Shown: in pieces, positions 44,757 through 64,000 of the stretch | Layout of the letters: each line of letters opens with the position of its first letter | Position numbering within the stretch: the first letter of the stretch is position 1 | Source of the DNA: Blakeslea trispora | Taxonomy: Eukaryota > Mucoromycota > Mucoromycetes > Mucorales > Choanephoraceae | Length of the DNA: 64,000 nucleotides | Assembly: GCA_025331445.1 (NCBI GenBank) | Contig: JAIWNE010000044.1 | Location: forward strand, 62,001 to 126,000 | Direction: 5' to 3' | Notes under the pieces: model-generated | Seen by the model: only the letters and a program-made list of their open reading frames with translations | Told to the model about the DNA's origin: nothing | Databases searched by the model: none | Position numbers and translations under genes: made by a program

Positions 44757-44846
44757 TTGACAAAGGAAAGAAATTCTCTTTCTTATGTTACTTTTCTTAT
44801 TTCTCATGTTGACGAGTTGCTAAGATTCGGCCTGCATATCCTTTCC

Positions 44847-45119
44847 GGCATCTCTCTGTCAGGATGAAACAGGCCTGCTCCAGCCTGCTCTGCTGTTAGG
44901 AGAAACTTTAAGATCCTGCTTGTACTCTCTTAGCATCTTTCCGTCAGGATGAAAAAGGCCTGCTCCGACCTGCTCTGCTATGAGGGACAGCATGGCACCT
45001 TTATACATCTGTCTTATTTTTTTTTCGGATGCACGAGAGCTTCATAGAAGTCTCTTTCGCAATCCCTTCAGCATCTCTCTGTCAGGATGAAACAGGCCTG
45101 CTCCAGCCTGCTCTGCTGT
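44847..45119 (+). repeat. Subterminal 50-bp units, left arm of palindrome 1
   Basis: Three copies of a GC-rich unit (CATCTCTCTGTCAGGATGAA followed by ACAGGCCTGCTCCAGCCTGC) at 44,847-44,896, 44,932-44,981 and 45,070-45,119, with unrelated spacers. Each unit holds two CCTGCTC cores. Position and spacing resemble subterminal protein-binding sites of transposons, which is inference. Confidence 0.7.
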
Positions 45120-45613
45120 AAGGAACGTTTTGATATTTTACTCTTTGCACCTTATATTATTGCCTTTTGGCAAAGAATCGAGAGAAGAGACTTTTAAACA
45201 GCTATACATAAGAAACGGAATGGTAAGGATAGCTACAAGAAAGGCAAGGATGTCTGATGTATACTCAAGGATATAGAGTTACAAAGTAGACTCCACTACC
45301 AGTACTAAATTAGTAATTGCATCCTAAATGCTTTCTGTATTAGTATACTCGAAACAATCTACATCCCATCGTATCTAGTTTAGCTAATAAAGAAGACTCT
45401 GTCGTCAATTCAAAATAACGTCAACTTGCTTTTTATGATGAAAGTGAAAAATGAAAAGATAACACTGATTTGCAAGCATCCGTTGAAAGACAAACAAACT
45501 GCTTGTACGATAGCCAAAAAAAAAAGAAACGAAAAGAAAAGGAACTGGGACAATAAGACATGTTTTAAACTATACAATTGACTGAGGGAAAAAGAAAAAG
45601 AAAGCACAACAAT

Positions 45614-46746
45614 TTATTCGAGTCGGTAAGGAAGAGAGAATGAGGGACGTCGGTAGTGAGAAGGGAAGAAGGCAGAAGGTTGTCTATTGACAATGTTGTT
45701 GGCAGTCTTATCTACCAAACTTTTTAGAAGCTGCATTTGTTCCATTATGTTTGGAAACAAACAAAAGTCGGCATAGTTTCTTGGCAGGTTAAACTGCCCC
45801 ACACAAGCAAATCTGTATACAGCTTCTTTATACAGATCAAGTCTGTATATGCGGCAAAAATCACCTTCCACCAGTAGGCCGCAAGCTTGGGGTTCGGCGA
45901 CACCAAAGTCAACAAGGCTGTCTACTACAACTTTCAACTCATAAGCCAGTTTAGCTTGGTCATTCACGATTTGCGAAGATCTAGCTCCTTTGTTTTTGAC
46001 TTCAACAACGAAGACGTCGAACTGGCGAGTGTTGGAAGCAAAGCGTAACACAAAATCAGGCTTGATTAAGCATAATGCTCTGCTTCTTTTGATGCTGGTT
46101 GTTGTTGCTGAGGTTGTTGTTGCTGAGGTTGTTGTTGCTGAGGTTGTTGCTGCTGAGGTTGTTGTTGCTGCTGAGGTTTCTGTGGCCAAAGCCGAGCAAT
46201 CCAAAAAGCCATGTGTCCTAATGGTTTGATATGAGTAAAGGTTTCATGACATCTCTTTGTCTACTGTTTACATATCAAATACTTACCATGCATGGGTGCA
46301 TCTTCGGTCGCAATTAAGAAAGACATCAAACAAAGCAACAAGGCTTTGAATGATCATGGTGTCTTCTGAGGCTGGACTTACTTGCCAGCTGGGGCACTTC
46401 AGCATCATAGCTCTTAGCAGCAGAGTCAGCTTCTTCGTGTTCTTCTTCTTTTCCACAATTGCCTTGGCCTCAAGGCTATTCAACAACGAATAAACATCAT
46501 CGAACTCATCTTCTTCCTCAACTTCGCATCTTTCTTGCTTCTTCTTTGCCGCTTCAATTTTCTAGAATGACAGAGGCATTTTCAGTATTCCGAAGTAGCT
46601 TAAAATTATGATATAATTACCTTTACGACCTGTCGACAGTAAAGAGCCAGATCATCTTCTACATCTACAACCTCTGGCAGGTCAAGGGAAGCAATGATGG
46701 ATTTAGTGACAGAAGAGGGAAATCCGTAAGGCTGCTGGCAATGCAT
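45614..46746 (-). CDS. Gene B (PD-(D/E)XK nuclease-like), left arm of palindrome 1
   Basis: Mirror copy of the gene at 48,870-50,002, with exons 46746-46621, 46561-46287 and 46217-45614 (334 aa). It differs from the other copies by one visible residue near the C-terminus (Ser for Phe in PSF(F/S)LPYRLE). Frame, splice sites and catalytic residues are intact. See the right-arm copy for domain detail. Confidence 0.6.
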
Positions 46747-46810
46747 TTGATCAAACAAAAAAATAAAATTGAGAGCCCTATTCAGTATAAAAAGTTAGAT
46801 TATGGTACAA

Positions 46811-46880
46811 AGGTAAACAAAGGTAAACAAAGGTAAACAAAGGTAAACAAAGGTAAACAAAGGTAAACAAAGGTAAACAA
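46811..46880 (-). repeat. 10-bp tandem repeat, 7 units
   Basis: Seven exact units of AGGTAAACAA on plus, between genes A and B. In gene orientation this reads TTGTTTACCT, which contains the core TGTTTAC bound by forkhead proteins in other eukaryotes. It lies about 65 bp upstream of the gene B start, so it could be a promoter element or the gene A 3' end. Confidence 0.85.
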
Positions 46881-46972
46881 AAGAGTCTCTGCTTCTTAAA
46901 GATGCAAAACTAGCCAAGACGACGACTGTTCAAATTATAGACGTAAAGCCCAAGGAAAATAGTATCAATACT

Positions 46973-47655
46973 TTACATAAATTGAACTGCACTAATCTCT
47001 TTTTCTGCTTCAGCTGCAACAATTGCTTCGGCGCGAAATGCTCTCAAGCTCTCAGTGATGCTCACATCACCCACCTTCCACTAGATATAACAGAGATGTA
47101 GCAGCGTTAGATAAACAGAAGGAGGCAAGATGTATAGCTGGTTAAGGTATTACCTCTCCTTCGGCACTCAACAGAGTCATTGCCTTATCACCAGAACCAT
47201 TGAAATAGCAAATTTTCTTTGACTGCGTCTGAAAATTAGTTCAATAAATGACTGTCTTTTACATTGCTTTCACATATCAACATACCGTTTGGTTATTCTT
47301 CAAGATCTTTGTATATTCATTTGTATTTATGTTAGTCTATCTAGTTGTGTAAGACGCTGAAATCATCTTACCAATAGCCTCCAAGCGCTCACAGCTCTTC
47401 CTTTTGACTATCACGCATTGTAAGTTATTTGATGAAACATTAAAAAAGGAGACTGTAATAACTTACCACCTTGACGCGCAGTTTCTTGGCACATATATTA
47501 AACTCTTTGAACCATGCTGCCATGCCTACTGGTGTGGTCCTTTCAAGCTCGATTATGAATTCTTGATTTTCAGCAACATACTGCTCAAATGTTGGCTTTG
47601 ATTGTTGAAGTGCCTTGCTGTTTAAGAAACTGATTATACTTTGGTCTTTTGACAT
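46973..47655 (-). CDS. Gene A (unknown), left arm of palindrome 1
   Basis: Mirror copy of the gene at 47,961-48,643, with exons 47655-47467, 47407-47372, 47306-47286, 47228-47154 and 47080-46973 (142 aa). No difference from the right-arm copy was noticed. Confidence 0.5.
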
Positions 47656-47724
47656 GATTTAAAGTGAAAGAAGGATGAATGTTAACTTAAGTCGTAGCAC
47701 CCAATTTGTATGGCTGATTATTGG

Positions 47725-47891
47725 TACAGTCAGACCTATTAAATTTGGCGTTTCATACAAAATTAATGTCGCATTAGCTAATATTGTTTCATCCTAATTT
47801 TTGTTATACAAGTGCCTATCAAGATGAAACAATATTGGCAAATGCGACATTAATTTTGTATGAAACGCCAAATTTAATAGGTCTGACTGTA
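47725..47891. mobile_element. MITE-like hairpin at apex of palindrome 1
   Basis: A 163-bp inverted-repeat element (47,727-47,889) starting CAGTCAGACCTATTAAATTT and ending in its inverse, with TA directly outside on both sides. This is the structure of Tc1/mariner/pogo-type MITEs. Its midpoint equals the midpoint of the whole 6-kb palindrome, so each half belongs to one arm. The two arms of the hairpin differ near the tip (AGCTA versus TGCCA), with a loop of about 28 nt. Confidence 0.7.
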
Positions 47892-47960
47892 CCAATAATC
47901 AGCCATACAAATTGGGTGCTACGACTTAAGTTAACATTCATCCTTCTTTCACTTTAAATC

Positions 47961-48643
47961 ATGTCAAAAGACCAAAGTATAATCAGTTTCTTAAACAGCA
48001 AGGCACTTCAACAATCAAAGCCAACATTTGAGCAGTATGTTGCTGAAAATCAAGAATTCATAATCGAGCTTGAAAGGACCACACCAGTAGGCATGGCAGC
48101 ATGGTTCAAAGAGTTTAATATATGTGCCAAGAAACTGCGCGTCAAGGTGGTAAGTTATTACAGTCTCCTTTTTTAATGTTTCATCAAATAACTTACAATG
48201 CGTGATAGTCAAAAGGAAGAGCTGTGAGCGCTTGGAGGCTATTGGTAAGATGATTTCAGCGTCTTACACAACTAGATAGACTAACATAAATACAAATGAA
48301 TATACAAAGATCTTGAAGAATAACCAAACGGTATGTTGATATGTGAAAGCAATGTAAAAGACAGTCATTTATTGAACTAATTTTCAGACGCAGTCAAAGA
48401 AAATTTGCTATTTCAATGGTTCTGGTGATAAGGCAATGACTCTGTTGAGTGCCGAAGGAGAGGTAATACCTTAACCAGCTATACATCTTGCCTCCTTCTG
48501 TTTATCTAACGCTGCTACATCTCTGTTATATCTAGTGGAAGGTGGGTGATGTGAGCATCACTGAGAGCTTGAGAGCATTTCGCGCCGAAGCAATTGTTGC
48601 AGCTGAAGCAGAAAAAGAGATTAGTGCAGTTCAATTTATGTAA
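47961..48643 (+). CDS. Gene A (unknown small protein), right arm of palindrome 1
   Basis: Five exons (47961-48149, 48209-48244, 48310-48330, 48388-48462 and 48536-48643) join in phase 0 to 142 aa, starting MSKDQSIISFLNSK. The first exon (63 codons) is helical (ALQQSKPTFEQYVAENQEF). Exon 4 reads SKKICYFNGSGDKAMTLLS. The C-terminus is an Ala/Glu helix (FRAEAIVAAEAEKEI). There is a perfect ACTAAC branch point before the 21-nt exon 3. That exon is very short and uncertain; exon 1 is the most reliable part. No family is recognised. It is transcribed away from the palindrome apex, 69 bp from the hairpin, and tandem with gene B. The same gene occurs four times in the window, which suggests that it belongs to the element. 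Confidence 0.5.
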
Positions 48644-48735
48644 AGTATTGATACTATTTTCCTTGGGCTTTACGTCTATAATTTGAACAGTCGTCGTCTT
48701 GGCTAGTTTTGCATCTTTAAGAAGCAGAGACTCTT

Positions 48736-48805
48736 TTGTTTACCTTTGTTTACCTTTGTTTACCTTTGTTTACCTTTGTTTACCTTTGTTTACCTTTGTT
48801 TACCT
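48736..48805 (+). repeat. 10-bp tandem repeat, 7 units
   Basis: Mirror of the array at 46,811-46,880: seven units of TTGTTTACCT between gene A and gene B. The count equals that of the other arm of the same palindrome and differs from the six units in palindrome 2. Confidence 0.85.
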
Positions 48806-48869
48806 TTGTACCATAATCTAACTTTTTATACTGAATAGGGCTCTCAATTTTATTTTTTTGTTTGATCAA

Positions 48870-50002
48870 ATGCATTGCCAGCAGCCTTACGGATTTCCCT
48901 CTTCTGTCACTAAATCCATCATTGCTTCCCTTGACCTGCCAGAGGTTGTAGATGTAGAAGATGATCTGGCTCTTTACTGTCGACAGGTCGTAAAGGTAAT
49001 TATATCATAATTTTAAGCTACTTCGGAATACTGAAAATGCCTCTGTCATTCTAGAAAATTGAAGCGGCAAAGAAGAAGCAAGAAAGATGCGAAGTTGAGG
49101 AAGAAGATGAGTTCGATGATGTTTATTCGTTGTTGAATAGCCTTGAGGCCAAGGCAATTGTGGAAAAGAAGAAGAACACGAAGAAGCTGACTCTGCTGCT
49201 AAGAGCTATGATGCTGAAGTGCCCCAGCTGGCAAGTAAGTCCAGCCTCAGAAGACACCATGATCATTCAAAGCCTTGTTGCTTTGTTTGATGTCTTTCTT
49301 AATTGCGACCGAAGATGCACCCATGCATGGTAAGTATTTGATATGTAAACAGTAGACAAAGAGATGTCATGAAACCTTTACTCATATCAAACCATTAGGA
49401 CACATGGCTTTTTGGATTGCTCGGCTTTGGCCACAGAAACCTCAGCAGCAACAACAACCTCAGCAGCAACAACCTCAGCAACAACAACCTCAGCAACAAC
49501 AACCTCAGCAACAACAACCAGCATCAAAAGAAGCAGAGCATTATGCTTAATCAAGCCTGATTTTGTGTTACGCTTTGCTTCCAACACTCGCCAGTTCGAC
49601 GTCTTCGTTGTTGAAGTCAAAAACAAAGGAGCTAGATCTTCGCAAATCGTGAATGACCAAGCTAAACTGGCTTATGAGTTGAAAGTTGTAGTAGACAGCC
49701 TTGTTGACTTTGGTGTCGCCGAACCCCAAGCTTGCGGCCTACTGGTGGAAGGTGATTTTTGCCGCATATACAGACTTGATCTGTATAAAGAAGCTGTATA
49801 CAGATTTGCTTGTGTGGGGCAGTTTAACCTGCCAAGAAACTATGCCGACTTTTGTTTGTTTCCAAACATAATGGAACAAATGCAGCTTCTAAAAAGTTTG
49901 GTAGATAAGACTGCCAACAACATTGTCAATAGACAACCTTCTGCCTTCTTCCCTTCTCACTACCGACGTCCCTCATTCTTTCTTCCTTACCGACTCGAAT
50001 AA
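48870..50002 (+). CDS. Gene B: PD-(D/E)XK nuclease-like protein, right arm of palindrome 1
   Basis: Exons 48870-48995, 49055-49329 and 49399-50002 give 334 aa. Residues 43-70 are charged and coiled. Residues 149-174 are a Ser/Ala/Thr linker encoded by CAG/CAA-type triplets read in an alternate frame; the other frame would give poly-Gln. The C-terminal half looks like a restriction-endonuclease fold: KPDFVLRF with Asp 188, then FDVFVVEVKNK with Glu 206 and Lys 208, then DQAKLAYEL with Gln 221, then a strand pair (CGLLVEGDFCRIYRL). This D-(E-x-K) spacing is the hallmark of the PD-(D/E)XK superfamily. Such domains occur in transposon-derived eukaryotic proteins including Crinkler/RHS-type effectors. 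Whether it cuts element DNA, helps transposition or is cargo is unknown. The broken gene at 5.8-9 kb has the same pattern. Confidence 0.6.
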
Positions 50003-51063
50003 ATTGTTGTGCTTTCTTTTTCTTTTTCCCTCAGTCAATTGTATAGTTTAAAACATGTCTTATTGTCCCAGTTCCTTTTCTTTTCGTTTCTTTTTTTTTT
50101 GGCTATCGTACAAGCAGTTTGTTTGTCTTTCAACGGATGCTTGCAAATCAGTGTTATCTTTTCATTTTTCACTTTCATCATAAAAAGCAAGTTGACGTTA
50201 TTTTGAATTGACGACAGAGTCTTCTTTATTAGCTAAACTAGATACGATGGGATGTAGATTGTTTCGAGTATACTAATACAGAAAGCATTTAGGATGCAAT
50301 TACTAATTTAGTACTGGTAGTGGAGTCTACTTTGTAACTCTATATCCTTGAGTATACATCAGACATCCTTGCCTTTCTTGTAGCTATCCTTACCATTCCG
50401 TTTCTTATGTATAGCTGTTTAAAAGTCTCTTCTCTCGATTCTTTGCCAAAAGGCAATAATATAAGGTGCAAAGAGTAAAATATCAAAACGTTCCTTACAG
50501 CAGAGCAGGCTGGAGCAGGCCTGTTTCATCCTGACAGAGAGATGCTGAAGGGATTGCGAAAGAGACTTCTATGAAGCTCTCGTGCATCCGAAAAAAAAAT
50601 AAGACAGATGTATAAAGGTGCCATGCTGTCCCTCATAGCAGAGCAGGTCGGAGCAGGCCTTTTTCATCCTGACGGAAAGATGCTAAGAGAGTACAAGCAG
50701 GATCTTAAAGTTTCTCCTAACAGCAGAGCAGGCTGGAGCAGGCCTGTTTCATCCTGACAGAGAGATGCCGGAAAGGATATGCAGGCCGAATCTTAGCAAC
50801 TCGTCAACATGAGAAATAAGAAAAGTAACATAAGAAAGAGAATTTCTTTTCTTTGTCAAAGAAACATAAATTTTATTCACAAACACATAGTCTATAAATT
50901 ATCCCTTGTATTGAATCTACTTAAATGTTCCCGCCGGGATCTGAATTATAGGCATAAATCCTCAGTGGCTTTGGTGGCTTACTGATTTCTTTACTTGTGA
51001 TTTTACTTTTGTTCCTGAAGAAGTTTTTTGTTTTATTTTCTAAAAGTTTCTTAAACATCAAAC
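50003..51063. other. Subterminal/leader region between gene B and MULE gene
   Basis: Holds the mirrored 50-bp units (50,497-50,769), the end of the palindrome at about 50,859, and 183 bp (to about 51,042) shared in inverted form with 58,868-59,050 but absent from the left arm of palindrome 1. A pyrimidine-rich leader precedes the transposase ATG. A short basic frame at 50,009-50,206 is not convincing. Confidence 0.6.
50497..50769 (-). repeat. Subterminal 50-bp units, right arm of palindrome 1
   Basis: Mirror of 44,847-45,119: three units at 50,497-50,546, 50,635-50,684 and 50,720-50,769 with the same spacing. Confidence 0.7.
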
Positions 51064-53196
51064 ATGTCAACCTCTTCTACCAGAATCGTATACAACTTAA
51101 CCAACATTGAGACCGCTCTTATCAGTACTGAAGTACCAGGAGTTTTAAGTCTCCCTTTGAACGAGACTGTATGTGTAGTAGCAAACGAGTGGAAAGAATG
51201 CTTCAACCGCATCAGCAACCAAGTGGATCAAGAAGCGTAGCAGAAGTGCTGAAAACTTGATCATGGGTGAATCCCGTGAATGTCACCGTAGAGGTCAACA
51301 TACCCCTGCCAGAACTGTGCGTATCAGTCAAAAAGACTCAAAAAAAATTGGATGCAAAGGAACTTTGAGCATCCTTCAGTATGTTCATAACCCTGCCGTT
51401 GTTGAAATCAAGATGTCGATGGGCCATGCCAATCATGTCCCTGGCAGCAACAGCGACATCAGAACTCTTCCTCTGACCAGGGAGACCGTAACGGTCATTG
51501 AAAGAAACTTGAGAAATGGCTCAAACTGCAGAGACATTAGAACTGCAGTTCTTCGCCAGATTGAGCAGTGGGAATGTGGCAGAAGAAAGCCCATTTATGA
51601 AGATGTTTACTATCGCATCAAGAAGGTGCGAAATAATGAGTTACTTTTTGAACATTTGAGTTGAGCAATAATTTTCCTTGAGTAGATTAAAGAGACTCTT
51701 TATCGTCTTGACAAAAATGACTTGATTTCTTTTGACGCCTGGCTTGATCGTCAATTGCCAATGAAGAACTATGTTGTCTTCAACGGCAATTTGCAATTGT
51801 ACAGTCAGAATGACAAGCTCTTTGCCCGTGGGTTCCAATCCCCTGTTCAAGTACGAGAGATGTCTCTCAATAAGTCTTTCTGTCTTGATGCAACACATGG
51901 CATCTCTCCTAGAAGTACTGAGGTGCTTTACAGTCTTGTTGCTCGGGGCTCTCAAACCCACAAGGGATATCCTGTTGCTTATATGGTAACCAACGATCAA
52001 ACCGTTGGCCCAGTAAACCAATGGCTTACCTTCTTGAAGCAACAAGGTAGCTTCAATCCTGAGGCAATCACCATTGATTGTTGCGTGGCCGAGCTTAATG
52101 CCATCCGCAGTGCATTGAATGGCATCTATGTCCATTACTGCGGGTTCCATGTGTTGAAGGCTTGGAGAAAGGCCATGGACCAAAAGGTCACTCTTACTGG
52201 TGCTCACACCCAAGAACAGGTAGGCCAGTACAAGAAACAACTGGAGCAATTGCTGGTCAGCTGCTTCTTACAAGCGAAGTTGCTGAATTCAACGAGCTTC
52301 TTGCTCAATTCGAGTCGAAGTTGGAACGAGAGAACCAGGCTGGCTTTCTGGCTTACTTTCGTAGACGCTGGACTCAAACTGAGGAGCTGAAGGGTCGATG
52401 GAGTCAATCGTACATGCCGGAGACACATAGGAGCATGCTCACTAACAATTATATCGAGTCGTGGCATAACCAGCTTAAGACCGTATATTTTAGTCGACGC
52501 AGAATTAATCTACTAGATCATTTGACTTTCGTCTTGGTTAATGATGTCGAATTTCACTTCGCAGAGGAACGAGAACGTATCATGTTCAACAATGGCAGAA
52601 TGAGGCCGGAGCAAAACGAATAAGCTAAACGTTCATTCTTTGCGAGAGAGGTTCCTGCAAACCAATTGCCTTCTCTCATTGAAAACCCATTGGGCACCAA
52701 TAGCAGTGATGTTGCTGTTGTCAATGGGAATTGGTTTGTAGGCTCCTTAACTTCCCCGTCTGTTAAGTACTCTGTTAGTGTTGAAGATGGCTTCATTAGC
52801 AAATGTACGTGTCCTGATTTCAGGAAGAGAAGTTTGCCTTGTAAGCACATGTATCTCTTAAAGAGATACACCTCAGTTCCTTTGTTCTATGATCGTGTCA
52901 GAAATGACCAACTGGTTGCTTTCAGAACTCAGGAAGCAACTCAAATTGACGAAGAAGGTATTACTTTCAAGAATAAAAATAAGACTGCTCATGAGAAAAG
53001 ACTAACGTTGAGCTTTTTTTAAGATGAAGAAATAGATGTCATTGGTGATAGCGATGAAGAGATAGATGTTGTAGATGAAGATGAAGCTGAAGCCAGCACT
53101 GTCAACATTCAATCGGAGAACCTCTTTGCGTTTGATGAAGTTGATGTTGACTTTGTTGGTGGAAGTGACGAAGAAGTTGAAGAAGGAGGCGAATAA
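51064..53196 (+). pseudogene. MULE-type DDE transposase (nearly intact, two or three lesions)
   Basis: Starts MSTSSTRIVYNLTNIE. Frame changes occur at about 51,240. A 60-nt intron (51,626-51,685) joins YYRIKK to IKETLYRL. At about 52,220-52,260 either a 41-nt intron or a frameshift leads to frame 1. A TAA at 52,621 interrupts; a CAA-to-TAA change would explain it. A 66-nt intron (52,958-53,023, branch CTAAC) leads to an acidic tail. Catalytic residues are all present: Asp at 51,887 (FCLDATHG), Asp at 52,076 (ITIDCC) and Glu at 52,456 (NNYIESWHN), with spacings of 63 and about 113 residues, plus FHV in the CxFH region. A SWIM zinc finger (CTCPDF...LPCKH) lies at about 52,805-52,850. Related to the FAR1/MULE group. 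As read it is not functional without recoding or correction. Confidence 0.75.
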
Positions 53197-53428
53197 AGGA
53201 GTGTAGCTTGGGAACGTGTCAAGTCTTTGATGTCGACACTGAACCACCAGAAAAGAAAAGTGCACAAGCACTGTGATTTAAAAATTCTAGAAATTCCCTA
53301 TAAAAACTCTAGATCAAATCTAGGAAAAATTTCCTAGGTGTCTGCAACGCATCTAGACTTTCTAGAATTTTTACTGGAAATTTCTTGAATTTTTTTGCAG
53401 TAGAAACTTGGATTTCTTGGATTTTATG
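53197..53428. other. 3' flank of MULE gene before the DIRS insertion
   Basis: Downstream of the TAA the same frame stays protein-like for about 25 codons (WERVKSLMSTLNHQKRKVHK), so the original stop may have been further on. An AT-rich stretch full of TCTAGAA/TTCTAGA motifs follows; similar motifs recur at 58,665-58,705 beyond the DIRS and small-gene region. Confidence 0.4.
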
Positions 53429-53479
53429 ATTTGTTGTCGTACCTAAACTAATTCCAGTTGACTCCACTTCGGCATCCAA

Positions 53480-53562
53480 TGTGATACATGCTCTCTGAGC
53501 CACGCTTTATTTTCCTTATATAAACAATAATAGTAATAAATCCCTTTTTCCCTCATATCTTT
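53480..53562 (+). repeat. DIRS left inverted terminal repeat
   Basis: Begins TGTGATACATGCTCTCTGAG and includes a TATATAAAC TATA-like box, so it probably also carries the promoter. It matches the right repeat in inverse over about 83 bp before a one-base indel. Confidence 0.85.
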
Positions 53563-53587
53563 CTAAGCCGCGCATCGTGGAAATCCT

Positions 53588-54454
53588 ATGACTGATACAA
53601 CTACTAATAATGAACGAAGAACATATACCGAGGAAGAGGTCATTGAATTACTTCGACGAGTCAAAACGGCGGAGCAAGCTGATGCTCAAAAATCCAGAGA
53701 AGAACGAGAGCTACCATTGGGGATCACGTCCACTTTGGAACAATTTACGAAGCAACAACATCAAGATAATTTCAAACGCTACAAACGAGAAATCACAAAA
53801 TATCACCATGAGGAATGGACTGTGGCCGAAGAAATCAACCGGTCCTTCATCCCAAAACTTAAACAATACACTGTTGACACGACTCAGGTCGTTAACGCTC
53901 ACTACAAAGGAGCAGAAATTAGTAGACTGCATGGACGAGCAGCCACTGAAATTTATGAGCAACTCTGCACTATCCAAGCAGGAGAAATCTCAGCCGACGA
54001 AGCCTATCAACTTTTGGAAGAGGCAATTGACAGCGCCAAACGACTGGCAACTCATGCATGGATTCAAGGGAAACAACATGATGAAGATGCAAAAGACTAT
54101 GCGATTAGAGCACTCAAACTACCCCCAAGTCTCAAGCATTTGGAAACAAAAGAGTCAGGTAATAAAAGAGAAGCCTTTAGTGAAGAATTTATTACCATGT
54201 ACAACGAAGCGAACTACCAACAACGAGTGCTTCGAGCAGCAACCTCCCAACCTTCCAATGGAAGGGGTCGAGGAGGATATTCAACTCAGTCTTATTGGAA
54301 TAACAACAGAGGAGGACGTGGTTACTCTGGACGAGGTGGAGCAAAAAACTACTTTGGAGGACGGGGACGTGGGGCCCCATCCTTCCACAACAACAGCTTG
54401 TCCCACAACTCTCAAAATTCAACATCACCAGACCACACCTCCAGTCACCAGTAA
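53588..54454 (+). CDS. DIRS ORF1, gag-like RNA-binding protein
   Basis: 288 aa from the first ATG after the left repeat. Residues 1-110 are charged and helical (EEEVIELLRRVKTAEQ). A middle helical region (120-215) holds IYEQLCTIQAGEISADEAY. The C-terminus (225-265) is an RGG/Gly-Arg-rich tail (GRGRGGYSTQ, NRGGRGYSGRGG) expected to bind RNA. There is no CCHC knuckle, which is usual for DIRS gag. It probably forms the particle that packages element RNA. The frame (codon phase 2) differs from those of RT and recombinase. Confidence 0.75.
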   Translation: MTDTTTNNERRTYTEEEVIELLRRVKTAEQADAQKSREERELPLGITSTLEQFTKQQHQDNFKRYKREITKYHHEEWTVAEEINRSFIPKLKQYTVDTTQVVNAHYKGAEISRLHGRAATEIYEQLCTIQAGEISADEAYQLLEEAIDSAKRLATHAWIQGKQHDEDAKDYAIRALKLPPSLKHLETKESGNKREAFSEEFITMYNEANYQQRVLRAATSQPSNGRGRGGYSTQSYWNNNRGGRGYSGRGGAKNYFGGRGRGAPSFHNNSLSHNSQNSTSPDHTSSHQ

Positions 54455-57400
54455 CGCCAAAAATATTACAGGTTCCACAAGTACCTCGTTTACCACCATC
54501 ACTACAATCCACTCCCCCGCTCCAGCATGTGATAACTCCAACATCCAACTACACTATTCCTTCAGACGGAATTCTTCCAGGAGGTCGACTTCGCCAATTT
54601 ATGAATTACTGGAAAACCATAACGAATCACCCATGGCCCTTATCAGTGATTCAGCAGGGCTACAAAATCCAATTCTCAAAGCAGCCAATTCCGTGGAAGA
54701 ATCGTATGAAACAACAAACAGCAGAGGAGCAATTTCATGTCAACGAAGCAGTTCAGAAATTCCTCGCGGGAGGTATGATAGAGAGGTCTCCAACACAAGA
54801 CCGAAGGTTCCTTTCGAAATTCTTTACACTACAGGAACAGACGAAGAGACGACCTATTCTAGATTGCCAACAACTGAACTCTTTTATCCAGGTAGAGCAC
54901 TTCAAGATGGAAGGAGTTCCCGCGCTAAGAGAACTGATCGAAAAGGACGATTACATATGCAAAATCGATTTAAAAGATGCGTATGTCGTGGTTCCCATAC
55001 ACGAAGACTCCAAAGATTTTCTCAGCTTCGAAAACGAAGGAGTGGTATACAGGTACAGGTCCCTAGCCTTTGGGTTGAGCGTAGCACCAAGAGTTTTCTC
55101 GAAGGTAATGAAATACGCCATAGAACCGCTGAGGAAAGAGGGTATTCGGATCATATACTACCTGGACGACATTTGTCTGCTAGCCAAGACAAAACAAGAA
55201 ATGGATCTTTTGACAACGAAGGTGAGACATCATTTAGAGAAATTGGGGTTTATCATCAATTACAAAAAGAGCATTCTCCTACCATCAAAGACACAGGAAT
55301 TTCTGGGATTCCTATTCAACAGCAAGAACATGATCATTTCAGTACCCATGTTGAAGATTACAAATCTGTTGAAGAGAATCAGACAGGTGTTCAGTTCTCC
55401 AAAGAGGTCTTGCAGATGGATAGCAGGTCTATTGGGAAAAATGACCGCCATGATACCAGCAGTGGGAGAAGCTCTCCTACACATCAGGTACTTGCAGAGA
55501 GATCTCTCCAAGACGCTGCATATGACCCATCAGAATTGGGAAGCAATTTGCAACTTGTCAAATACCAGCATTCAAGAATTACGTTGGTGGGAGACGTTTA
55601 TAACACAGAAGAATGGGTTACCAATCCAGAAGATTCCGACAGCCAACCCGAGCACAATCATTCACGTAGATGCTTCAAACAGTGGATGGGGAGTCAGCTC
55701 GAATCTGATAACAGCTTCAGGATTTTGGAGCCAAGAGGAACAAAAACAGTCCATAAACGTGCGAGAACTGAAGACGATACTATTGGCGATCCAGCACCAC
55801 GCCAAAAGATGCGAAGACTCAACTATCAAGATATATTCGGACAACAAAACAGCTCTAAAATATACAACAAAATCGGGAGGCACGACGTCGATATTATTGC
55901 AGGAATTGGCCATACAGATACAGGACCTATGCACCACCCACAACATCGAAGTAATATATCAACATATTCCAGGGATTTTGAACACCCAAGCAGACAGATT
56001 GAGCAGACAACCACTACCGTTGTACGAATCGACAATTCCCAGGAAAATGTTCCAGCACATACAACACCAATGGGGGCCACTGAAAATCGACGCATTTGCA
56101 GCTCGCCACAACCACCAACTGCCCATGTACTGGTCCCTATCTCCGGATCCAGCAGCATCCGCAATAGATGCCATGCAACAGACATGGTTGAAGAAGGGGA
56201 TATATCTGTACCCTCCTTGGAAGTTGATTCCGCAGGTGTTGAAGAAAATACAAGAACAGAGATTGAAACAAGCAGTTCTGATCACTCCATGGTGGCCCAG
56301 TCAGTTCTGGTTCCCCATGATTCTGCGCATGAGACACATTCAGCGTCCACTGGTTTGGAAGATCAATCGGAGATGGTGTCTAGCCGCTTGGAGATTATCA
56401 ACCACTATCGGGCACAAGATGGTATAGCAGAGGACACCATTCAATATTTAACTCAAAAAACAAGACAGTCAACACACAAGGCATATGACAATGGATGGCG
56501 ACACTGGAATTTGTGGTGCAAACAACAACATCCGCCATGTGACCCGTTGAATTATGATGTAAAGACAATCCTTCAATTCCTGCGAGATAACAAAGCCTTC
56601 AGTAGTACCCATTTAAATACACTGCGTTCTTCCATCGCCTCAGTTTTTTCAGTTATCCATAGCGACAAACCACCTATTGCAGAACAATCATTAATTAAAG
56701 ATTTCTTTGCCGCAAAACGAAATTCTGAAGTCAAAATTCCTACAGAGCAACAATCTACAACCTGGGATATAAGTATCCTGGTCAGTTATATCAAGCAGCA
56801 CTTGTCACCCACCAGCACTCTCACATTAGACCAACTACAATTGAAGACTGTTCTCCTACTATGCATCTCAACCATGTGGCGTCCAAGGTCTGATATTGGG
56901 CGACTCCAATACAGGGACATTGTGTTGAAAAGAGATGGATCAGCTTCAAGCATTCGGATCCATGCGCGAACGCCTAAAGAAAGCCAAGTCAAATCCGTGA
57001 CATTAGGTACGATTGAAGATGACGACCTCTGCCCAGTCAGGACCACCTATTCATTCGTTACAAAGACAGCTCACCTTAGAGAAGGTATGCCTGACGACCA
57101 TACCTTGTTCTTAGCCTATATCGACTCACCTGAAAAACTCCCTATGTCTGTCCGCCCTACCACAGTGGCAAACTGGGTGAAGGAAGCCTTGGGAAAGGCA
57201 GGTATCAATACTAAAGATTATCAAGCACATTCAGTCAGGGCAGCTTCGAGCACGAAGGCAATCGAGTTGGGTCACTCAATTCAAGAGGTCAAAAAGCATG
57301 CTAATTGGAGCTTAAACTCAAACACTTTTGAAAATTTTTACTACAAACCATCGTCGCAGACATCATCTAGTACTGCAATTACCAATTCAATTTTTTCTAG

Positions 57401-57539
57401 TCCGGAAAAGCGTATCACATTGGATGCCGAAGTGGAGTCAACTGGAATTAGTTTAGGTACGACAACAAATACCAATGTTGACGAAACGAAGGCAGAAAAT
57501 GTGATACATGCCCGACCCTGGTACCGATTTTTCGGTTGA
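53610..57539 (+). CDS. DIRS tyrosine recombinase (functional domain about 56,350-57,539)
   Basis: The reading frame is open for 1,309 codons from 53,610, underneath ORF1 and RT, but only the last 390 residues look like protein. They hold an N-terminal core-binding helix bundle (YLTQKTRQSTHKAYDNGWRH) and a catalytic domain with the first Arg in MWRPRSDIGRL, the box-II HSVRAASS (His-x-x-Arg), and a final W...TFENFYY with the nucleophile Tyr. This is the catalytic set of tyrosine recombinases (R, HxxR, Y). It integrates the circular DNA form of the element. The last 40 codons are encoded by the internal complementary region. The real start is not an ATG that I can point to; frameshift or readthrough from RT is likely. 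Confidence 0.85.
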   Translation: MNEEHIPRKRSLNYFDESKRRSKLMLKNPEKNESYHWGSRPLWNNLRSNNIKIISNATNEKSQNITMRNGLWPKKSTGPSSQNLNNTLLTRLRSLTLTTKEQKLVDCMDEQPLKFMSNSALSKQEKSQPTKPINFWKRQLTAPNDWQLMHGFKGNNMMKMQKTMRLEHSNYPQVSSIWKQKSQVIKEKPLVKNLLPCTTKRTTNNECFEQQPPNLPMEGVEEDIQLSLIGITTEEDVVTLDEVEQKTTLEDGDVGPHPSTTTACPTTLKIQHHQTTPPVTSNAKNITGSTSTSFTTITTIHSPAPACDNSNIQLHYSFRRNSSRRSTSPIYELLENHNESPMALISDSAGLQNPILKAANSVEESYETTNSRGAISCQRSSSEIPRGRYDREVSNTRPKVPFEILYTTGTDEETTYSRLPTTELFYPGRALQDGRSSRAKRTDRKGRLHMQNRFKRCVCRGSHTRRLQRFSQLRKRRSGIQVQVPSLWVERSTKSFLEGNEIRHRTAEERGYSDHILPGRHLSASQDKTRNGSFDNEGETSFREIGVYHQLQKEHSPTIKDTGISGIPIQQQEHDHFSTHVEDYKSVEENQTGVQFSKEVLQMDSRSIGKNDRHDTSSGRSSPTHQVLAERSLQDAAYDPSELGSNLQLVKYQHSRITLVGDVYNTEEWVTNPEDSDSQPEHNHSRRCFKQWMGSQLESDNSFRILEPRGTKTVHKRARTEDDTIGDPAPRQKMRRLNYQDIFGQQNSSKIYNKIGRHDVDIIAGIGHTDTGPMHHPQHRSNISTYSRDFEHPSRQIEQTTTTVVRIDNSQENVPAHTTPMGATENRRICSSPQPPTAHVLVPISGSSSIRNRCHATDMVEEGDISVPSLEVDSAGVEENTRTEIETSSSDHSMVAQSVLVPHDSAHETHSASTGLEDQSEMVSSRLEIINHYRAQDGIAEDTIQYLTQKTRQSTHKAYDNGWRHWNLWCKQQHPPCDPLNYDVKTILQFLRDNKAFSSTHLNTLRSSIASVFSVIHSDKPPIAEQSLIKDFFAAKRNSEVKIPTEQQSTTWDISILVSYIKQHLSPTSTLTLDQLQLKTVLLLCISTMWRPRSDIGRLQYRDIVLKRDGSASSIRIHARTPKESQVKSVTLGTIEDDDLCPVRTTYSFVTKTAHLREGMPDDHTLFLAYIDSPEKLPMSVRPTTVANWVKEALGKAGINTKDYQAHSVRAASSTKAIELGHSIQEVKKHANWSLNSNTFENFYYKPSSQTSSSTAITNSIFSSPEKRITLDAEVESTGISLGTTTNTNVDETKAENVIHARPWYRFFG
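54529..56427 (+). CDS. DIRS reverse transcriptase and RNase H
   Basis: The frame opens at 54,529 with a non-ATG codon; the first ATG is at 54,601, so translation may depend on frameshift, reinitiation or splicing from ORF1. RT blocks: RRPILDCQQLNSFI, YICKIDLKDAYVVVPIHE (first catalytic Asp), YRYRSLAFGLSVAPRVFSK, and IIYYLDDICLL with the YLDD box. RNase H follows: HVDASNSGWG, NVRELKTIL, IYSDNKTALK and NTQADRLSR, giving the D-E-D-D set. The last 120 residues (IDAFAARHNHQLPMYWSL, YLYPPW) match the region after RNase H in DIRS/Ngaro elements. No lesion is seen. The end overlaps the recombinase frame. Confidence 0.92.
   Translation: MITPTSNYTIPSDGILPGGRLRQFMNYWKTITNHPWPLSVIQQGYKIQFSKQPIPWKNRMKQQTAEEQFHVNEAVQKFLAGGMIERSPTQDRRFLSKFFTLQEQTKRRPILDCQQLNSFIQVEHFKMEGVPALRELIEKDDYICKIDLKDAYVVVPIHEDSKDFLSFENEGVVYRYRSLAFGLSVAPRVFSKVMKYAIEPLRKEGIRIIYYLDDICLLAKTKQEMDLLTTKVRHHLEKLGFIINYKKSILLPSKTQEFLGFLFNSKNMIISVPMLKITNLLKRIRQVFSSPKRSCRWIAGLLGKMTAMIPAVGEALLHIRYLQRDLSKTLHMTHQNWEAICNLSNTSIQELRWWETFITQKNGLPIQKIPTANPSTIIHVDASNSGWGVSSNLITASGFWSQEEQKQSINVRELKTILLAIQHHAKRCEDSTIKIYSDNKTALKYTTKSGGTTSILLQELAIQIQDLCTTHNIEVIYQHIPGILNTQADRLSRQPLPLYESTIPRKMFQHIQHQWGPLKIDAFAARHNHQLPMYWSLSPDPAASAIDAMQQTWLKKGIYLYPPWKLIPQVLKKIQEQRLKQAVLITPWWPSQFWFPMILRMRHIQRPLVWKINRRWCLAAWRLSTTIGHKMV
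57412..57510. repeat. DIRS internal complementary region
   Basis: GTATCACATTGGATGCCGAA onward is the inverse of the sequence outside and including the start of the left repeat. ACCAATGTTGACGAAACGAA onward is the inverse of the right end. Its two halves join the two ends, as required for circularisation. Confidence 0.88.
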
Positions 57540-57633
57540 CCATTTGATTTCTTATTATCATATATCATATATATTTCTTATCATTTCCCATCCCTCAAAA
57601 AAAAAAAAAAAAAAATTGAAAATTTATTGCTAG

Positions 57634-57720
57634 CTTAGAAGATATGAGGGAAAAAGGGATTTATTACTATTATTGTTTATATAAGGAAAATAAAGCGTGG
57701 CTCAGAGAGCATGTATCACA
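57634..57720 (-). repeat. DIRS right inverted terminal repeat
   Basis: Inverse of the left repeat, ending ATGTATCACA and followed by 30 bp complementary to the right half of the internal region. Confidence 0.85.
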
Positions 57721-57874
57721 TTTTCTGCCTTCGTTTCGTCAACATTGGTAATGACAGTTAATTAATCCTTATTGGTAGTTTCATTTAAGAATATACACTT
57801 TAAAAGATGAAGATTCAAAAGCTATGATATGGTAGCAATCAGGATTTTATTTGTAATAGCAAAATAATGGAAAG

Positions 57875-58867: not shown

Positions 58868-59141
58868 CTTATAAATAAAACAAAAAACTTCTTCAGGAAC
58901 AAAAGTAAAATCACAAGTAAAGAAATCAGTAAGCCACCAAAGCCACTGAGGATTTATGCCTATAATTCAGATCCCGGCGGGAACATTTAAGTAGATTCAA
59001 TACAAGGGATAATTTATAGACTATGTGTTTGTGAATAAAATTTATGTTTCTTTGACAAAGAAAAGAAATTCTCTTTCTTATGTTACTTTTCTTATTTCTC
59101 ATGTTGACGAGTTGCTAAGATTCGGCCTGCATATCCTTTCC

Positions 59142-59191
59142 GGCATCTCTCTGTCAGGATGAAACAGGCCTGCTCCAGCCTGCTCTGCTGT
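59142..59191 (+). repeat. Single subterminal 50-bp unit, left arm of palindrome 2
   Basis: Only one unit remains. Its left flank equals that of unit 1 and its right flank equals that of unit 3 of palindrome 1, so units 1-3 were collapsed by recombination or slippage. Confidence 0.8.
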
Positions 59192-59685: not shown

Positions 59686-60818
59686 TTATTCGAGTCGGTA
59701 AGGAAGAAAGAATGAGGGACGTCGGTAGTGAGAAGGGAAGAAGGCAGAAGGTTGTCTATTGACAATGTTGTTGGCAGTCTTATCTACCAAACTTTTTAGA
59801 AGCTGCATTTGTTCCATTATGTTTGGAAACAAACAAAAGTCGGCATAGTTTCTTGGCAGGTTAAACTGCCCCACACAAGCAAATCTGTATACAGCTTCTT
59901 TATACAGATCAAGTCTGTATATGCGGCAAAAATCACCTTCCACCAGTAGGCCGCAAGCTTGGGGTTCGGCGACACCAAAGTCAACAAGGCTGTCTACTAC
60001 AACTTTCAACTCATAAGCCAGTTTAGCTTGGTCATTCACGATTTGCGAAGATCTAGCTCCTTTGTTTTTGACTTCAACAACGAAGACGTCGAACTGGCGA
60101 GTGTTGGAAGCAAAGCGTAACACAAAATCAGGCTTGATTAAGCATAATGCTCTGCTTCTTTTGATGCTGGTTGTTGTTGCTGAGGTTGTTGTTGCTGAGG
60201 TTGTTGTTGCTGAGGTTGTTGCTGCTGAGGTTGTTGTTGCTGCTGAGGTTTCTGTGGCCAAAGCCGAGCAATCCAAAAAGCCATGTGTCCTAATGGTTTG
60301 ATATGAGTAAAGGTTTCATGACATCTCTTTGTCTACTGTTTACATATCAAATACTTACCATGCATGGGTGCATCTTCGGTCGCAATTAAGAAAGACATCA
60401 AACAAAGCAACAAGGCTTTGAATGATCATGGTGTCTTCTGAGGCTGGACTTACTTGCCAGCTGGGGCACTTCAGCATCATAGCTCTTAGCAGCAGAGTCA
60501 GCTTCTTCGTGTTCTTCTTCTTTTCCACAATTGCCTTGGCCTCAAGGCTATTCAACAACGAATAAACATCATCGAACTCATCTTCTTCCTCAACTTCGCA
60601 TCTTTCTTGCTTCTTCTTTGCCGCTTCAATTTTCTAGAATGACAGAGGCATTTTCAGTATTCCGAAGTAGCTTAAAATTATGATATAATTACCTTTACGA
60701 CCTGTCGACAGTAAAGAGCCAGATCATCTTCTACATCTACAACCTCTGGCAGGTCAAGGGAAGCAATGATGGATTTAGTGACAGAAGAGGGAAATCCGTA
60801 AGGCTGCTGGCAATGCAT
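59686..60818 (-). CDS. Gene B (PD-(D/E)XK nuclease-like), left arm of palindrome 2
   Basis: Third copy, 334 aa, same three-exon structure (exon 1 60818-60693, exon 2 60633-60359, exon 3 60289-59686). Identical in its readable last-exon protein to the right-arm copy of palindrome 1, with Phe at the site where the left arm of palindrome 1 has Ser. Confidence 0.6.
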
Positions 60819-60882
60819 TTGATCAAACAAAAAAATAAAATTGAGAGCCCTATTCAGTATAAAAAGTTAGATTATGGTACAA

Positions 60883-60942
60883 AGGTAAACAAAGGTAAAC
60901 AAAGGTAAACAAAGGTAAACAAAGGTAAACAAAGGTAAACAA
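60883..60942 (-). repeat. 10-bp tandem repeat, 6 units
   Basis: Same AGGTAAACAA unit as at 46.8 kb, but six copies. Confidence 0.85.
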
Positions 60943-61034
60943 AAGAGTCTCTGCTTCTTAAAGATGCAAAACTAGCCAAGACGACGACTGTTCAAATTAT
61001 AGACGTAAAGCCCAAGGAAAATAGTATCAATACT

Positions 61035-61717
61035 TTACATAAATTGAACTGCACTAATCTCTTTTTCTGCTTCAGCTGCAACAATTGCTTCGGCGCGAAA
61101 TGCTCTCAAGCTCTCAGTGATGCTCACATCACCCACCTTCCACTAGATATAACAGAGATGTAGCAGCGTTAGATAAACAGAAGGAGGCAAGATGTATAGC
61201 TGGTTAAGGTATTACCTCTCCTTCGGCACTCAACAGAGTCATTGCCTTATCACCAGAACCATTGAAATAGCAAATTTTCTTTGACTGCGTCTGAAAATTA
61301 GTTCAATAAATGACTGTCTTTTACATTGCTTTCACATATCAACATACCGTTTGGTTATTCTTCAAGATCTTTGTATATTCATTTGTATTTATGTTAGTCT
61401 ATCTAGTTGTGTAAGACGCTGAAATCATCTTACCAATAGCCTCCAAGCGCTCACAGCTCTTCCTTTTGACTATCACGCATTGTAAGTTATTTGATGAAAC
61501 ATTAAAAAAGGAGACTGTAATAACTTACCACCTTGACGCGCAGTTTCTTGGCACATATATTAAACTCTTTGAACCATGCTGCCATGCCTACTGGTGTGGT
61601 CCTTTCAAGCTCGATTATGAATTCTTGATTTTCAGCAACATACTGCTCAAATGTTGGCTTTGATTGTTGAAGTGCCTTGCTGTTTAAGAAACTGATTATA
61701 CTTTGGTCTTTTGACAT
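61035..61717 (-). CDS. Gene A (unknown), left arm of palindrome 2
   Basis: Third copy of the 142-aa five-exon gene, apparently unchanged. Confidence 0.5.
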
Positions 61718-61786
61718 GATTTAAAGTGAAAGAAGGATGAATGTTAACTTAAGTCGTAGCACCCAATTTGTATGGCTGATTATTGG

Positions 61787-61953
61787 TACAGTCAGACCTA
61801 TTAAATTTGGCGTTTCATACAAAATTAATGTCGCATTAGCTAATATTGTTTCATCCTAATTTTTGTTATACAAGTGCCTATCAAGATGAAACAATATTGG
61901 CAAATGCGACATTAATTTTGTATGAAACGCCAAATTTAATAGGTCTGACTGTA
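61787..61953. mobile_element. MITE-like hairpin at apex of palindrome 2
   Basis: Copy of the 163-bp hairpin with flanking TA, including the same mismatches near the tip as in palindrome 1. Confidence 0.7.
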
Positions 61954-62022
61954 CCAATAATCAGCCATACAAATTGGGTGCTACGACTTAAGTTAACATT
62001 CATCCTTCTTTCACTTTAAATC

Positions 62023-62705
62023 ATGTCAAAAGACCAAAGTATAATCAGTTTCTTAAACAGCAAGGCACTTCAACAATCAAAGCCAACATTTGAGCAGTAT
62101 GTTGCTGAAAATCAAGAATTCATAATCGAGCTTGAAAGGACCACACCAGTAGGCATGGCAGCATGGTTCAAAGAGTTTAATATATGTGCCAAGAAACTGC
62201 GCGTCAAGGTGGTAAGTTATTACAGTCTCCTTTTTTAATGTTTCATCAAATAACTTACAATGCGTGATAGTCAAAAGGAAGAGCTGTGAGCGCTTGGAGG
62301 CTATTGGTAAGATGATTTCAGCGTCTTACACAACTAGATAGACTAACATAAATACAAATGAATATACAAAGATCTTGAAGAATAACCAAACGGTATGTTG
62401 ATATGTGAAAGCAATGTAAAAGACAGTCATTTATTGAACTAATTTTCAGACGCAGTCAAAGAAAATTTGCTATTTCAATGGTTCTGGTGATAAGGCAATG
62501 ACTCTGTTGAGTGCCGAAGGAGAGGTAATACCTTAACCAGCTATACATCTTGCCTCCTTCTGTTTATCTAACGCTGCTACATCTCTGTTATATCTAGTGG
62601 AAGGTGGGTGATGTGAGCATCACTGAGAGCTTGAGAGCATTTCGCGCCGAAGCAATTGTTGCAGCTGAAGCAGAAAAAGAGATTAGTGCAGTTCAATTTA
62701 TGTAA
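62023..62705 (+). CDS. Gene A (unknown), right arm of palindrome 2
   Basis: Fourth copy, same exons as the palindrome 1 right-arm gene shifted by 14,062; the TAA is at 62,703-62,705. Confidence 0.5.
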
Positions 62706-62797
62706 AGTATTGATACTATTTTCCTTGGGCTTTACGTCTATAATTTGAACAGTCGTCGTCTTGGCTAGTTTTGCATCTTTAAGAAGCAGAGACTCTT

Positions 62798-62857
62798 TTG
62801 TTTACCTTTGTTTACCTTTGTTTACCTTTGTTTACCTTTGTTTACCTTTGTTTACCT
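62798..62857 (+). repeat. 10-bp tandem repeat, 6 units
   Basis: Six units of TTGTTTACCT, the same count as the opposite arm of this palindrome. Confidence 0.85.
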
Positions 62858-62921
62858 TTGTACCATAATCTAACTTTTTATACTGAATAGGGCTCTCAAT
62901 TTTATTTTTTTGTTTGATCAA

Positions 62922-64000
62922 ATGCATTGCCAGCAGCCTTACGGATTTCCCTCTTCTGTCACTAAATCCATCATTGCTTCCCTTGACCTGCCAGAGGTTG
63001 TAGATGTAGAAGATGATCTGGCTCTTTACTGTCGACAGGTCGTAAAGGTAATTATATCATAATTTTAAGCTACTTCGGAATACTGAAAATGCCTCTGTCA
63101 TTCTAGAAAATTGAAGCGGCAAAGAAGAAGCAAGAAAGATGCGAAGTTGAGGAAGAAGATGAGTTCGATGATGTTTATTCGTTGTTGAATAGCCTTGAGG
63201 CCAAGGCAATTGTGGAAAAGAAGAAGAACACGAAGAAGCTGACTCTGCTGCTAAGAGCTATGATGCTGAAGTGCCCCAGCTGGCAAGTAAGTCCAGCCTC
63301 AGAAGACACCATGATCATTCAAAGCCTTGTTGCTTTGTTTGATGTCTTTCTTAATTGCGACCGAAGATGCACCCATGCATGGTAAGTATTTGATATGTAA
63401 ACAGTAGACAAAGAGATGTCATGAAACCTTTACTCATATCAAACCATTAGGACACATGGCTTTTTGGATTGCTCGGCTTTGGCCACAGAAACCTCAGCAG
63501 CAACAACAACCTCAGCAGCAACAACCTCAGCAACAACAACCTCAGCAACAACAACCTCAGCAACAACAACCAGCATCAAAAGAAGCAGAGCATTATGCTT
63601 AATCAAGCCTGATTTTGTGTTACGCTTTGCTTCCAACACTCGCCAGTTCGACGTCTTCGTTGTTGAAGTCAAAAACAAAGGAGCTAGATCTTCGCAAATC
63701 GTGAATGACCAAGCTAAACTGGCTTATGAGTTGAAAGTTGTAGTAGACAGCCTTGTTGACTTTGGTGTCGCCGAACCCCAAGCTTGCGGCCTACTGGTGG
63801 AAGGTGATTTTTGCCGCATATACAGACTTGATCTGTATAAAGAAGCTGTATACAGATTTGCTTGTGTGGGGCAGTTTAACCTGCCAAGAAACTATGCCGA
63901 CTTTTGTTTGTTTCCAAACATAATGGAACAAATGCAGCTTCTAAAAAGTTTGGTAGATAAGACTGCCAACAACATTGTCAATAGACAACCTTCTGCCTTC
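62922..64000 (+). CDS. Gene B (PD-(D/E)XK nuclease-like), right arm of palindrome 2, 3' truncated by window
   Basis: Fourth copy: exons 62922-63047, 63107-63381 and 63451 onward. The window ends about 18 codons before the expected stop, so the Ser/Phe site cannot be scored here. Catalytic residues are present. Confidence 0.6.

Follow-up and report, generated by a model that had tools for sequence, protein, structure and literature searches.

Giant gene-bearing palindromes in the genome of Blakeslea trispora and a possible origin from inverted-repeat transposons

A 64,000-nucleotide stretch of a Blakeslea trispora contig (the window; contig C225, positions 62001-126000, from an assembly of 37.2 Mb in 285 contigs) carries two giant near-perfect palindromes, each centred exactly on a short stem-loop transposon that we take to be of Tc1/mariner type. 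The duplicated segment holds a single gene from a family of Mucorales proteins that share a PD-(D/E)XK-like motif, and palindromes with genes of this family occur on several other contigs. The observation is real and larger than an earlier, sequence-only reading of the window had claimed: what it concerns is not a single element but a kind of giant palindrome that recurs in this genome. On balance, we favour the explanation that these structures arose as inverted duplications, with inverted-repeat transposons close to the genes as the seeds, and were later copied together with neighbouring DNA, perhaps with homogenisation between the arms.

Two giant palindromes in the window

Palindrome 1 occupies 44753..50863 (unstranded, axis 47808), as delimited by self BLAST and a mismatch map, and palindrome 2 occupies 59048..64692 (unstranded, axis 61870), its last 692 bp lying outside the window. 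Compared with its own reverse complement, palindrome 1 is 99.58% identical over 6,116 columns (self BLAST, 44753-50863). Palindrome 2 is 99.40% identical over 5,690 columns (self BLAST on the extended contig, 59029-64710), where BLAST carries the mirror 18-19 bases further on each side, to 59029 and 64710. The two palindromes have the same orientation and are 99.5% alike. Their presence, centres, spacing of 14,062 bp and mirror sums of 95,616 and 123,740 are as the sequence-only reading had claimed, and its statement that the arms show almost no divergence also holds, with two differing sites each outside the innermost 32 bp. These sites are at distances 2172 and 3042 in palindrome 1 (arms of ~3.0 kb) and at 2809 and 2819 in palindrome 2 (arms of ~2.8 kb); the arm mismatches are otherwise concentrated at the axis. 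Mirror matches of this length cannot have arisen by chance.

The arms carry one gene of a Mucorales family

Each arm of the two palindromes contains one gene of seven exons and six GT-AG introns, which points outward and encodes 479 amino acids. The sequence-only reading had described two genes per arm, A and B; these are parts of the single seven-exon gene, and the closest protein found, P0009 of Choanephora cucurbitarum (78% over 399 amino acids), spans both. It had been right that the genes are intact, face outward and carry a PD-(D/E)XK-like motif. The copy in the right arm of palindrome 1 (47961..50002, + strand) has exons at 47961-48149, 48209-48244, 48388-48462, 48536-48639, 48839-48995, 49055-49329 and 49399-50002, with the motif in the last exon. 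The left-arm copy lies at 45614..47655 (- strand, coordinates by mirror sum). In palindrome 2, the right-arm copy is at 62023..64000 (+ strand, coordinates by offset from palindrome 1), with its stop at 64054 outside the window, and the left-arm copy at 59686..61717 (- strand, coordinates by mirror sum). All four frames are intact, and the sole residue change among them is F473S in the left arm of palindrome 1. The ATG is 71 bp outward of the axis element.

Ten family sequences were aligned, namely hypothetical proteins P0001-P0009 from Blakeslea, Choanephora, Rhizopus and Gilbertella and the window exon. The hypothetical proteins belong to the same family as the arm gene, and none has an assigned function; P0001 is Blakeslea trispora BD560DRAFT_198208, which matches C248, and P0009 is represented by two member sequences on a single Choanephora contig. 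Six residues, P250, D251, D264, E269, K271 and Q279 in P0009 numbering, are invariant in 10/10 sequences, and their order P, D, D, E, K, Q presumably marks a PD-(D/E)XK site. None of the ten sequences has a Pfam match above the cut-off, the best weak one being New_glue (7.8e-4) over a repeat stretch. A PDB sequence search found no relevant relative, with three irrelevant matches at E 2.4-4.8, and the AlphaFold2 model of P0009 is of low confidence, with a predicted local distance difference test (pLDDT) score of 43. Given these three results, the nuclease identity is one that we infer from the motif, and a nuclease role of the family protein is offered as a guess.

A Tc1/mariner-type element at the axis

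The axis of palindrome 1 is a 163-bp stem-loop at 47727..47889 (unstranded), bordered by TA at 47725-47726 and 47890-47891, and the same 163-bp element lies in the same orientation at the axis of palindrome 2 (61789..61951, unstranded). Folded as DNA, 47722-47894 has a free energy of -77.4 kcal/mol (z -21.9). A genome search with 204 bases around the axis returned 63 matches. The copies have CAGTCAGACCTATT-type ends in common, with TA outside, a combination that we take to be the signature of a Tc1/mariner miniature inverted-repeat transposable element (MITE). Of 28 MITE stretches compared, 18 had a pair of terminal inverted repeats (TIRs) by the pattern used and 10 did not; TA was present on both sides in all 18 TIR-bounded copies.

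In five of these 18 copies, namely those in palindromes 1 and 2 and on C248, C13 and C217, which represent four independent loci, the mirror symmetry begins exactly at the TA, with 60/60 flank bases agreeing. The other 13 have unrelated flanks (13-23/60 bases agreeing), and the ten stretches without a TIR pair show self-symmetry over at most 180 columns in ~500 bp each. The axis at C248 is a full element (36577-38075) with the TIRs of the MITE family and an open transposase frame of 332 codons, which reaches 106 bits with the IS630 model (cut-off 100) and has a DDE_3 match at C248:37206-37634. That of C13 is a TIR-bounded element of 2,247 bp. The part that looks mobile is the axis element and not the whole palindrome. 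These copies resemble Tc1/mariner stem-loop MITEs in their CAGT-type TIRs, in being flanked by TA and in having a full element that shares these TIRs and carries an IS630-type transposase; unlike them, the element here forms the exact axis of a longer palindrome at four loci.

It was also considered whether the axis repeat might be a promoter that has been conserved along with the gene. In 26 loci searched, several of them overlapping and some without the repeat, C39 alone had the repeat and a family match within reach. As this was so, and as the copies have TA duplicates, the idea was rejected.

Two MITE copies on C32 and C256 (L026 and L027) have ~230 bp of one flank in common with the C248 arm (90-95%, TIR included). 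Their flanks are not mirrored, and they are possibly related to the state before duplication.

Palindromes recur within the gene family

With P0003 and the last exon of the window as queries, 126 matches were found in the genome and merged into 67 family loci. Fifteen of the 67 are within palindromes, or 12 if the C230 copy, which is cut by the contig end, and two C109 copies are set aside. Inverted family pairs with equal scores and one exact centre were found on C63, C201 and C220, in addition to C225 and C248. Arms more than 99% identical with multi-copy genes were observed in full on C225 (twice) and C248, and in the pieces examined on C63, C201 and C220. The C248 arms are 3,365 bp long and 100% identical. 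C63 is mirrored over 1 kb around the axis except for a ~35-bp core, and again at 300/300 bases 3.1-3.4 kb out, and C109 repeats the C63 axis, with 1.9 kb self-mirrored at 98%. In the piece of C220 examined, 300/300 bases are mirrored at ~2.4-2.6 kb from the axis. On C201, 0.5 kb is mirrored on each side beyond a 75-bp core (1-kb piece), as are the last 1,254 bp of the arms, which end 4,116 bp from the axis. The family proteins of the five palindrome lineages (C225, C248, C63/C109, C201 and C220) are ~22-43% identical in matched stretches.

Two further palindromes came from the MITE search. The one on C13 has 6,149 columns at 99.94% plus 1,594 further out (arms of ~7.5 kb), and the one on C217 extends ~0.35 kb outside the MITE, with asymmetry near the axis and at one site at 195. 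C201 is built around a different short element; this copy has TA and CAGT-type ends, and 39 further places that match it were listed. Inverted-repeat elements are present at the axes of C225, C248, C13, C217 and C201, and none was recognised at C63/C109 and C220, which makes 3/5 gene-bearing lineages transposon-centred, or 5/7 with C13 and C217.

Where the ends were reached (palindromes 1 and 2, C248, C13, C217 and C201), the outer flanks are unlike on the two sides in 6/6 palindromes. These have no common outer end; both the end sequences and the arm lengths differ (2.8-3.1 kb on C225, 3.4 kb on C248 and 4.1 kb on C201). Direct repeats of more than 2 bases at the outer ends, read by eye, are absent from the C225, C13, C248, C217 and C201 palindromes. 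Around the axis, asymmetry extends no further than 32 bp (palindromes 1 and 2), 30 bp (C217), 17 bp (C63, 1-kb piece) and 75 bp (C201, 1-kb piece).

Two other inverted family pairs were not accepted. On C269, the flank agreed at 153/203 positions in a poor alignment with no axis symmetry, and on C33, equal scores were obtained for one exon only, 19 kb apart. On C201, a diverged TIR of the MITE family lies at ~1240-1268 of locus L091, ~45 bp before the first ATG of the gene frame and outside the central element. On C248, a third copy of the arm (C248:44676-47936, L047) adjoins the palindrome in direct orientation to the right arm. That right arm ends at TA, followed by CAGTCACACTC, by its look the start of another Tc1-like element.

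Inverted pairs in other gene families were counted for comparison, by eye, as two matches on one contig with scores within 0.5 bit and the same query range, at most 60 kb apart; 122 of 422 kinase, 150 of 184 MULE and 150 of 592 Tc1 candidates were scored. No such pair was present among 150 kinase, 114 Ras and 148 MULE matches. Looser MULE pairs are on C153 (73.2 vs 77.6 bits) and C58 (73.2 vs 72.5 bits, 61 kb apart). Tc1 transposase gave six inverted pairs among the matches listed (167 in all), and 0/6 were mirrored at the axis or at least 1.5 kb outside the matches, a check that would miss short arms. Palindromes are enriched in the one gene family relative to the four control families, which stand in for a genome-wide survey.

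Copies of the C225 palindrome

The sequence-only reading had looked to a second genomic locus with the same arms, and one exists: C230:1-11158 is collinear with window 46601-57750 at 99.3%, and the C225 palindrome is thus present in three places. In the C230 copy, the loop is flipped relative to the flank, and small gaps cluster at that contig end; the flip could reflect arm-to-arm recombination or poor sequence at the contig end. Palindromes 1 and 2 have the same imperfect loop and are therefore probably of one origin. They differ from each other in both arms at once at two places. One is an intronic 10-bp repeat, with 7.5 units in palindrome 1 (48735..48809, + strand, with its mirror copy at 46807-46881) and 6.5 units in both arms of palindrome 2 (60879-60943 and 62797-62861). 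The other is a segment around 50546-50850, near the outer end. Such differences are as arm-to-arm conversion would give, a process that they only suggest.

A diverged, non-palindromic remnant of the outer part of the arm (78%) is present on C245 (L036, 4172-4950), and a short match there runs on into the inner-side flank of palindrome 1.

A proposed model of transposon-seeded inverted duplication

In the scenario that we favour, a Tc1/mariner-type element, either the 163-bp MITE or a full element as in C248, would insert at a TA near the gene. A break in the element or at its end, perhaps through transposase cutting or hairpin breakage, would then allow the two TIRs to pair, either by folding back or across sister chromatids. 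From the paired TIR, the neighbouring gene would be copied in reverse orientation, which would place the start of the mirror exactly at the TA. That start is observed, while the copying route would be the one drawn from work on yeast. In the parts of that work used here, fold-back priming turns breaks near natural inverted repeats into inverted duplications (PMC10622511), and origin-dependent inverted amplification is proposed to be seeded by short inverted repeats (PMC4689423). The copied arm would next be joined to other DNA, giving the unequal arm lengths and the outer flanks that are seen where the ends were reached. TIR-primed copying followed by joining is suggested because the mirror start at the TA, the retained loop asymmetry and the unequal arms with their outer flanks all fit it. 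The finished palindrome would afterwards be copied along with neighbouring DNA; the copies (palindromes 1 and 2 and C230) are observed, and their place in this order is presumed. Arm-to-arm recombination may keep the arms identical and sometimes flip the centre, as the data only suggest. The outcome would be identical gene pairs, back to back.

Several results weigh against this scenario or narrow it. The C63/C109 axis is non-repeated, with its ~35-bp asymmetric core and no transposon recognised, and C220 has an 847-bp spacer between convergent genes and no MITE, the MITE alone having been tested for there. The C109 arms differ at further sites, and the left gene copy is degraded. The link between palindromes and the gene family gains no independent support from C13 and C217, as both were found through the MITE search: membership of the family is not demonstrated for the C13 gene, whose best score is 7.6 bits (E 0.14), and the 3 kb of C217 examined gave no match to the family. 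Palindromes were sought through this gene family and this MITE only, and not genome-wide. A CTGTA footprint, predicted beforehand for the C201 junction from the junctions already seen, was absent, and the footprint idea was dropped; its weak form, a TA within 3 bases, holds on one C201 side (ATATAT) and has little meaning. No empty site was found. The left flank of palindrome 1 has relatives of 71-76% on C240 and C104, and at the two places examined, the match stops 64 bp short of palindrome 1, with nothing else matching the window or the surrounding contig. The both-arm differences between palindromes 1 and 2 could also have arisen without gene conversion, if two slightly different single copies were each palindromised.

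Alternative explanations

An assembly artefact from chimeric or hairpin reads has to be considered, as every locus comes from one assembly and is known from assembled sequence alone, the arms are up to 100% identical, and the C230 contig starts within an arm of a palindrome and has numerous small gaps relative to the window. A simple hairpin-read artefact is nevertheless unlikely, given that in all six palindromes with ends reached, the two outer flanks are unlike each other. In addition, palindromes 1 and 2 combine the same imperfect loop with unlike both-arm markers, and the symmetry begins exactly at transposon ends. We regard this explanation as very improbable. It is less so, yet still improbable, that the transposons entered late, into the axes of palindromes formed otherwise, for example through a preference for palindromic or cruciform DNA. 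The identical picture would arise if a perfect palindrome had TA at its centre, and the C63/C109 and C220 palindromes do exist without a recognised axis transposon. Late entry would, however, require that four loci each had a palindrome free of any spacer and with TA at its centre, whereas the transposon-free palindromes have a ~35-bp core or an 847-bp spacer. Insertion there should have left bases beyond the element without a mirror partner, yet at the four loci all 60 bases compared are mirrored.

The sequence-only reading had proposed one mobile system, and a palindromic mobile element, in which the gene pair and the axis move as one transposon and the PD-(D/E)XK-like protein acts as its transposase or as a homing nuclease, would account for intact frames, for the three places of the C225 palindrome and for the recurrence of the family in palindromes of five lineages despite its low protein identity. 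The proposal is not supported: there is no common outer end and no target-site duplication of more than 2 bases where ends were reached, the arms are unequal, the C225 copies bring flanking DNA along, and a MULE-like remnant and a DIRS-type retroelement occupy the interval between the palindromes. Moreover, 52 of the 67 family loci were not placed in a palindrome, most of them without examination. We consider such an element improbable. A related idea gives the family a more active part: the PD-(D/E)XK-like protein might cut at or near inverted-repeat transposons beside its own gene, with repair copying the gene inverted, and the family would drive its own palindromisation. This seems to us a long shot, though if true, it would describe a self-amplifying selfish gene system that borrows transposon hairpins and relies on conversion to keep its copies intact.

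The possibility that we take more seriously, while still thinking it unlikely, is that the gene pairs are ancient and that conversion between the arms has kept them identical, as it does in palindromes of the mammalian Y, such that arm identity reflects conversion and not youth. This is consistent with the both-arm differences that separate palindromes 1 and 2, with the flipped loop of C230 and with the two P0009 sequences on one Choanephora contig, which would be expected if the pair exists there (their arrangement was not seen). On the other hand, the different axes and arm lengths point to separate origins, no dated outgroup is available, and recent formation would also give identical arms.

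Relation to known systems

Giant near-perfect palindromes are usually considered unstable, the best-known examples being those of sex chromosomes, tumours and laboratory yeast. As far as the cited parts of the sources go, yeast fold-back inverted duplication (PMC10622511) and origin-dependent inverted-repeat amplification (ODIRA; PMC4689423) resemble the Blakeslea palindromes in having inverted repeats at the junction and a palindromic junction that can rearrange afterwards. Those are laboratory events, whereas the palindromes described here are fixed in a sequenced fungal genome and several are centred on complete, TA-flanked transposons; ODIRA, as presented in that part of the source, gives triplications, while the Blakeslea structures are duplications. 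The ampliconic palindromes of the human Y (PMC3723533), with arms over 99.9% identical according to the portion consulted, and the willow sex chromosome (PMC7023750) are alike, within the same scope, in carrying genes in near-identical inverted repeats. They differ from the present case, in which several fungal contigs are involved, the arms are ~3-8 kb, a transposon is at most axes and conversion is only suggested.

The ingredients are each known; their combination in a fungus was not found in the literature searched, and the sequence-only reading, which knew of no described fungal element with this architecture, agrees with this, the searches being weak. The findings suggest a route by which inverted-repeat elements can make a giant DNA palindrome out of the gene beside them. 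If true, this would be a natural instance of a step proposed from the laboratory, in which short inverted repeats seed large palindromes and new gene pairs, and would open the formation and stability of palindromes, as well as gene conversion, to testing in an industrial mould.

Other features of the window

Palindromes 1 and 2 are separated by DNA that does not belong to the arms. A 175-bp flank on the inner side of palindrome 1 (50864..51038, + strand) has an inverted copy adjoining palindrome 2 (58873..59047, - strand). Between them, fragments of a MULE-like transposase, which fall in several frames and include a SWIM zinc finger, lie at 51182..53022 (+ strand; Pfam SWIM 4.9e-7, above the cut-off, and MULE E 1.2e-3, below it). 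They are followed by a retroelement at 53429..57750 (+ strand), whose limits were set from repeats and from C230. In Pfam, this element matches RVT_1 (3.6e-21) and Dam (7.9e-7) above the cut-off and RNase_H (4e-5) and Phage_integrase (4.1e-4) below it; from this domain combination, we take it to be of DIRS type. It has long open frames of 1315 and 707 codons, stop to stop. The 99% copy on C230 ends its match at the identical base, beyond which the contigs diverge.

Outside this region, a short palindrome of ~215 bp at window 6673-6887 has arms 85% alike and an 88% copy at C248:44032-44246, and a similar one is present at 3990-4211 of locus L037. Together they are perhaps another stem-loop MITE family, without long arms. 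Tandem repeats with units of 24 bp and 18/48 bp occupy window 22922-23725.

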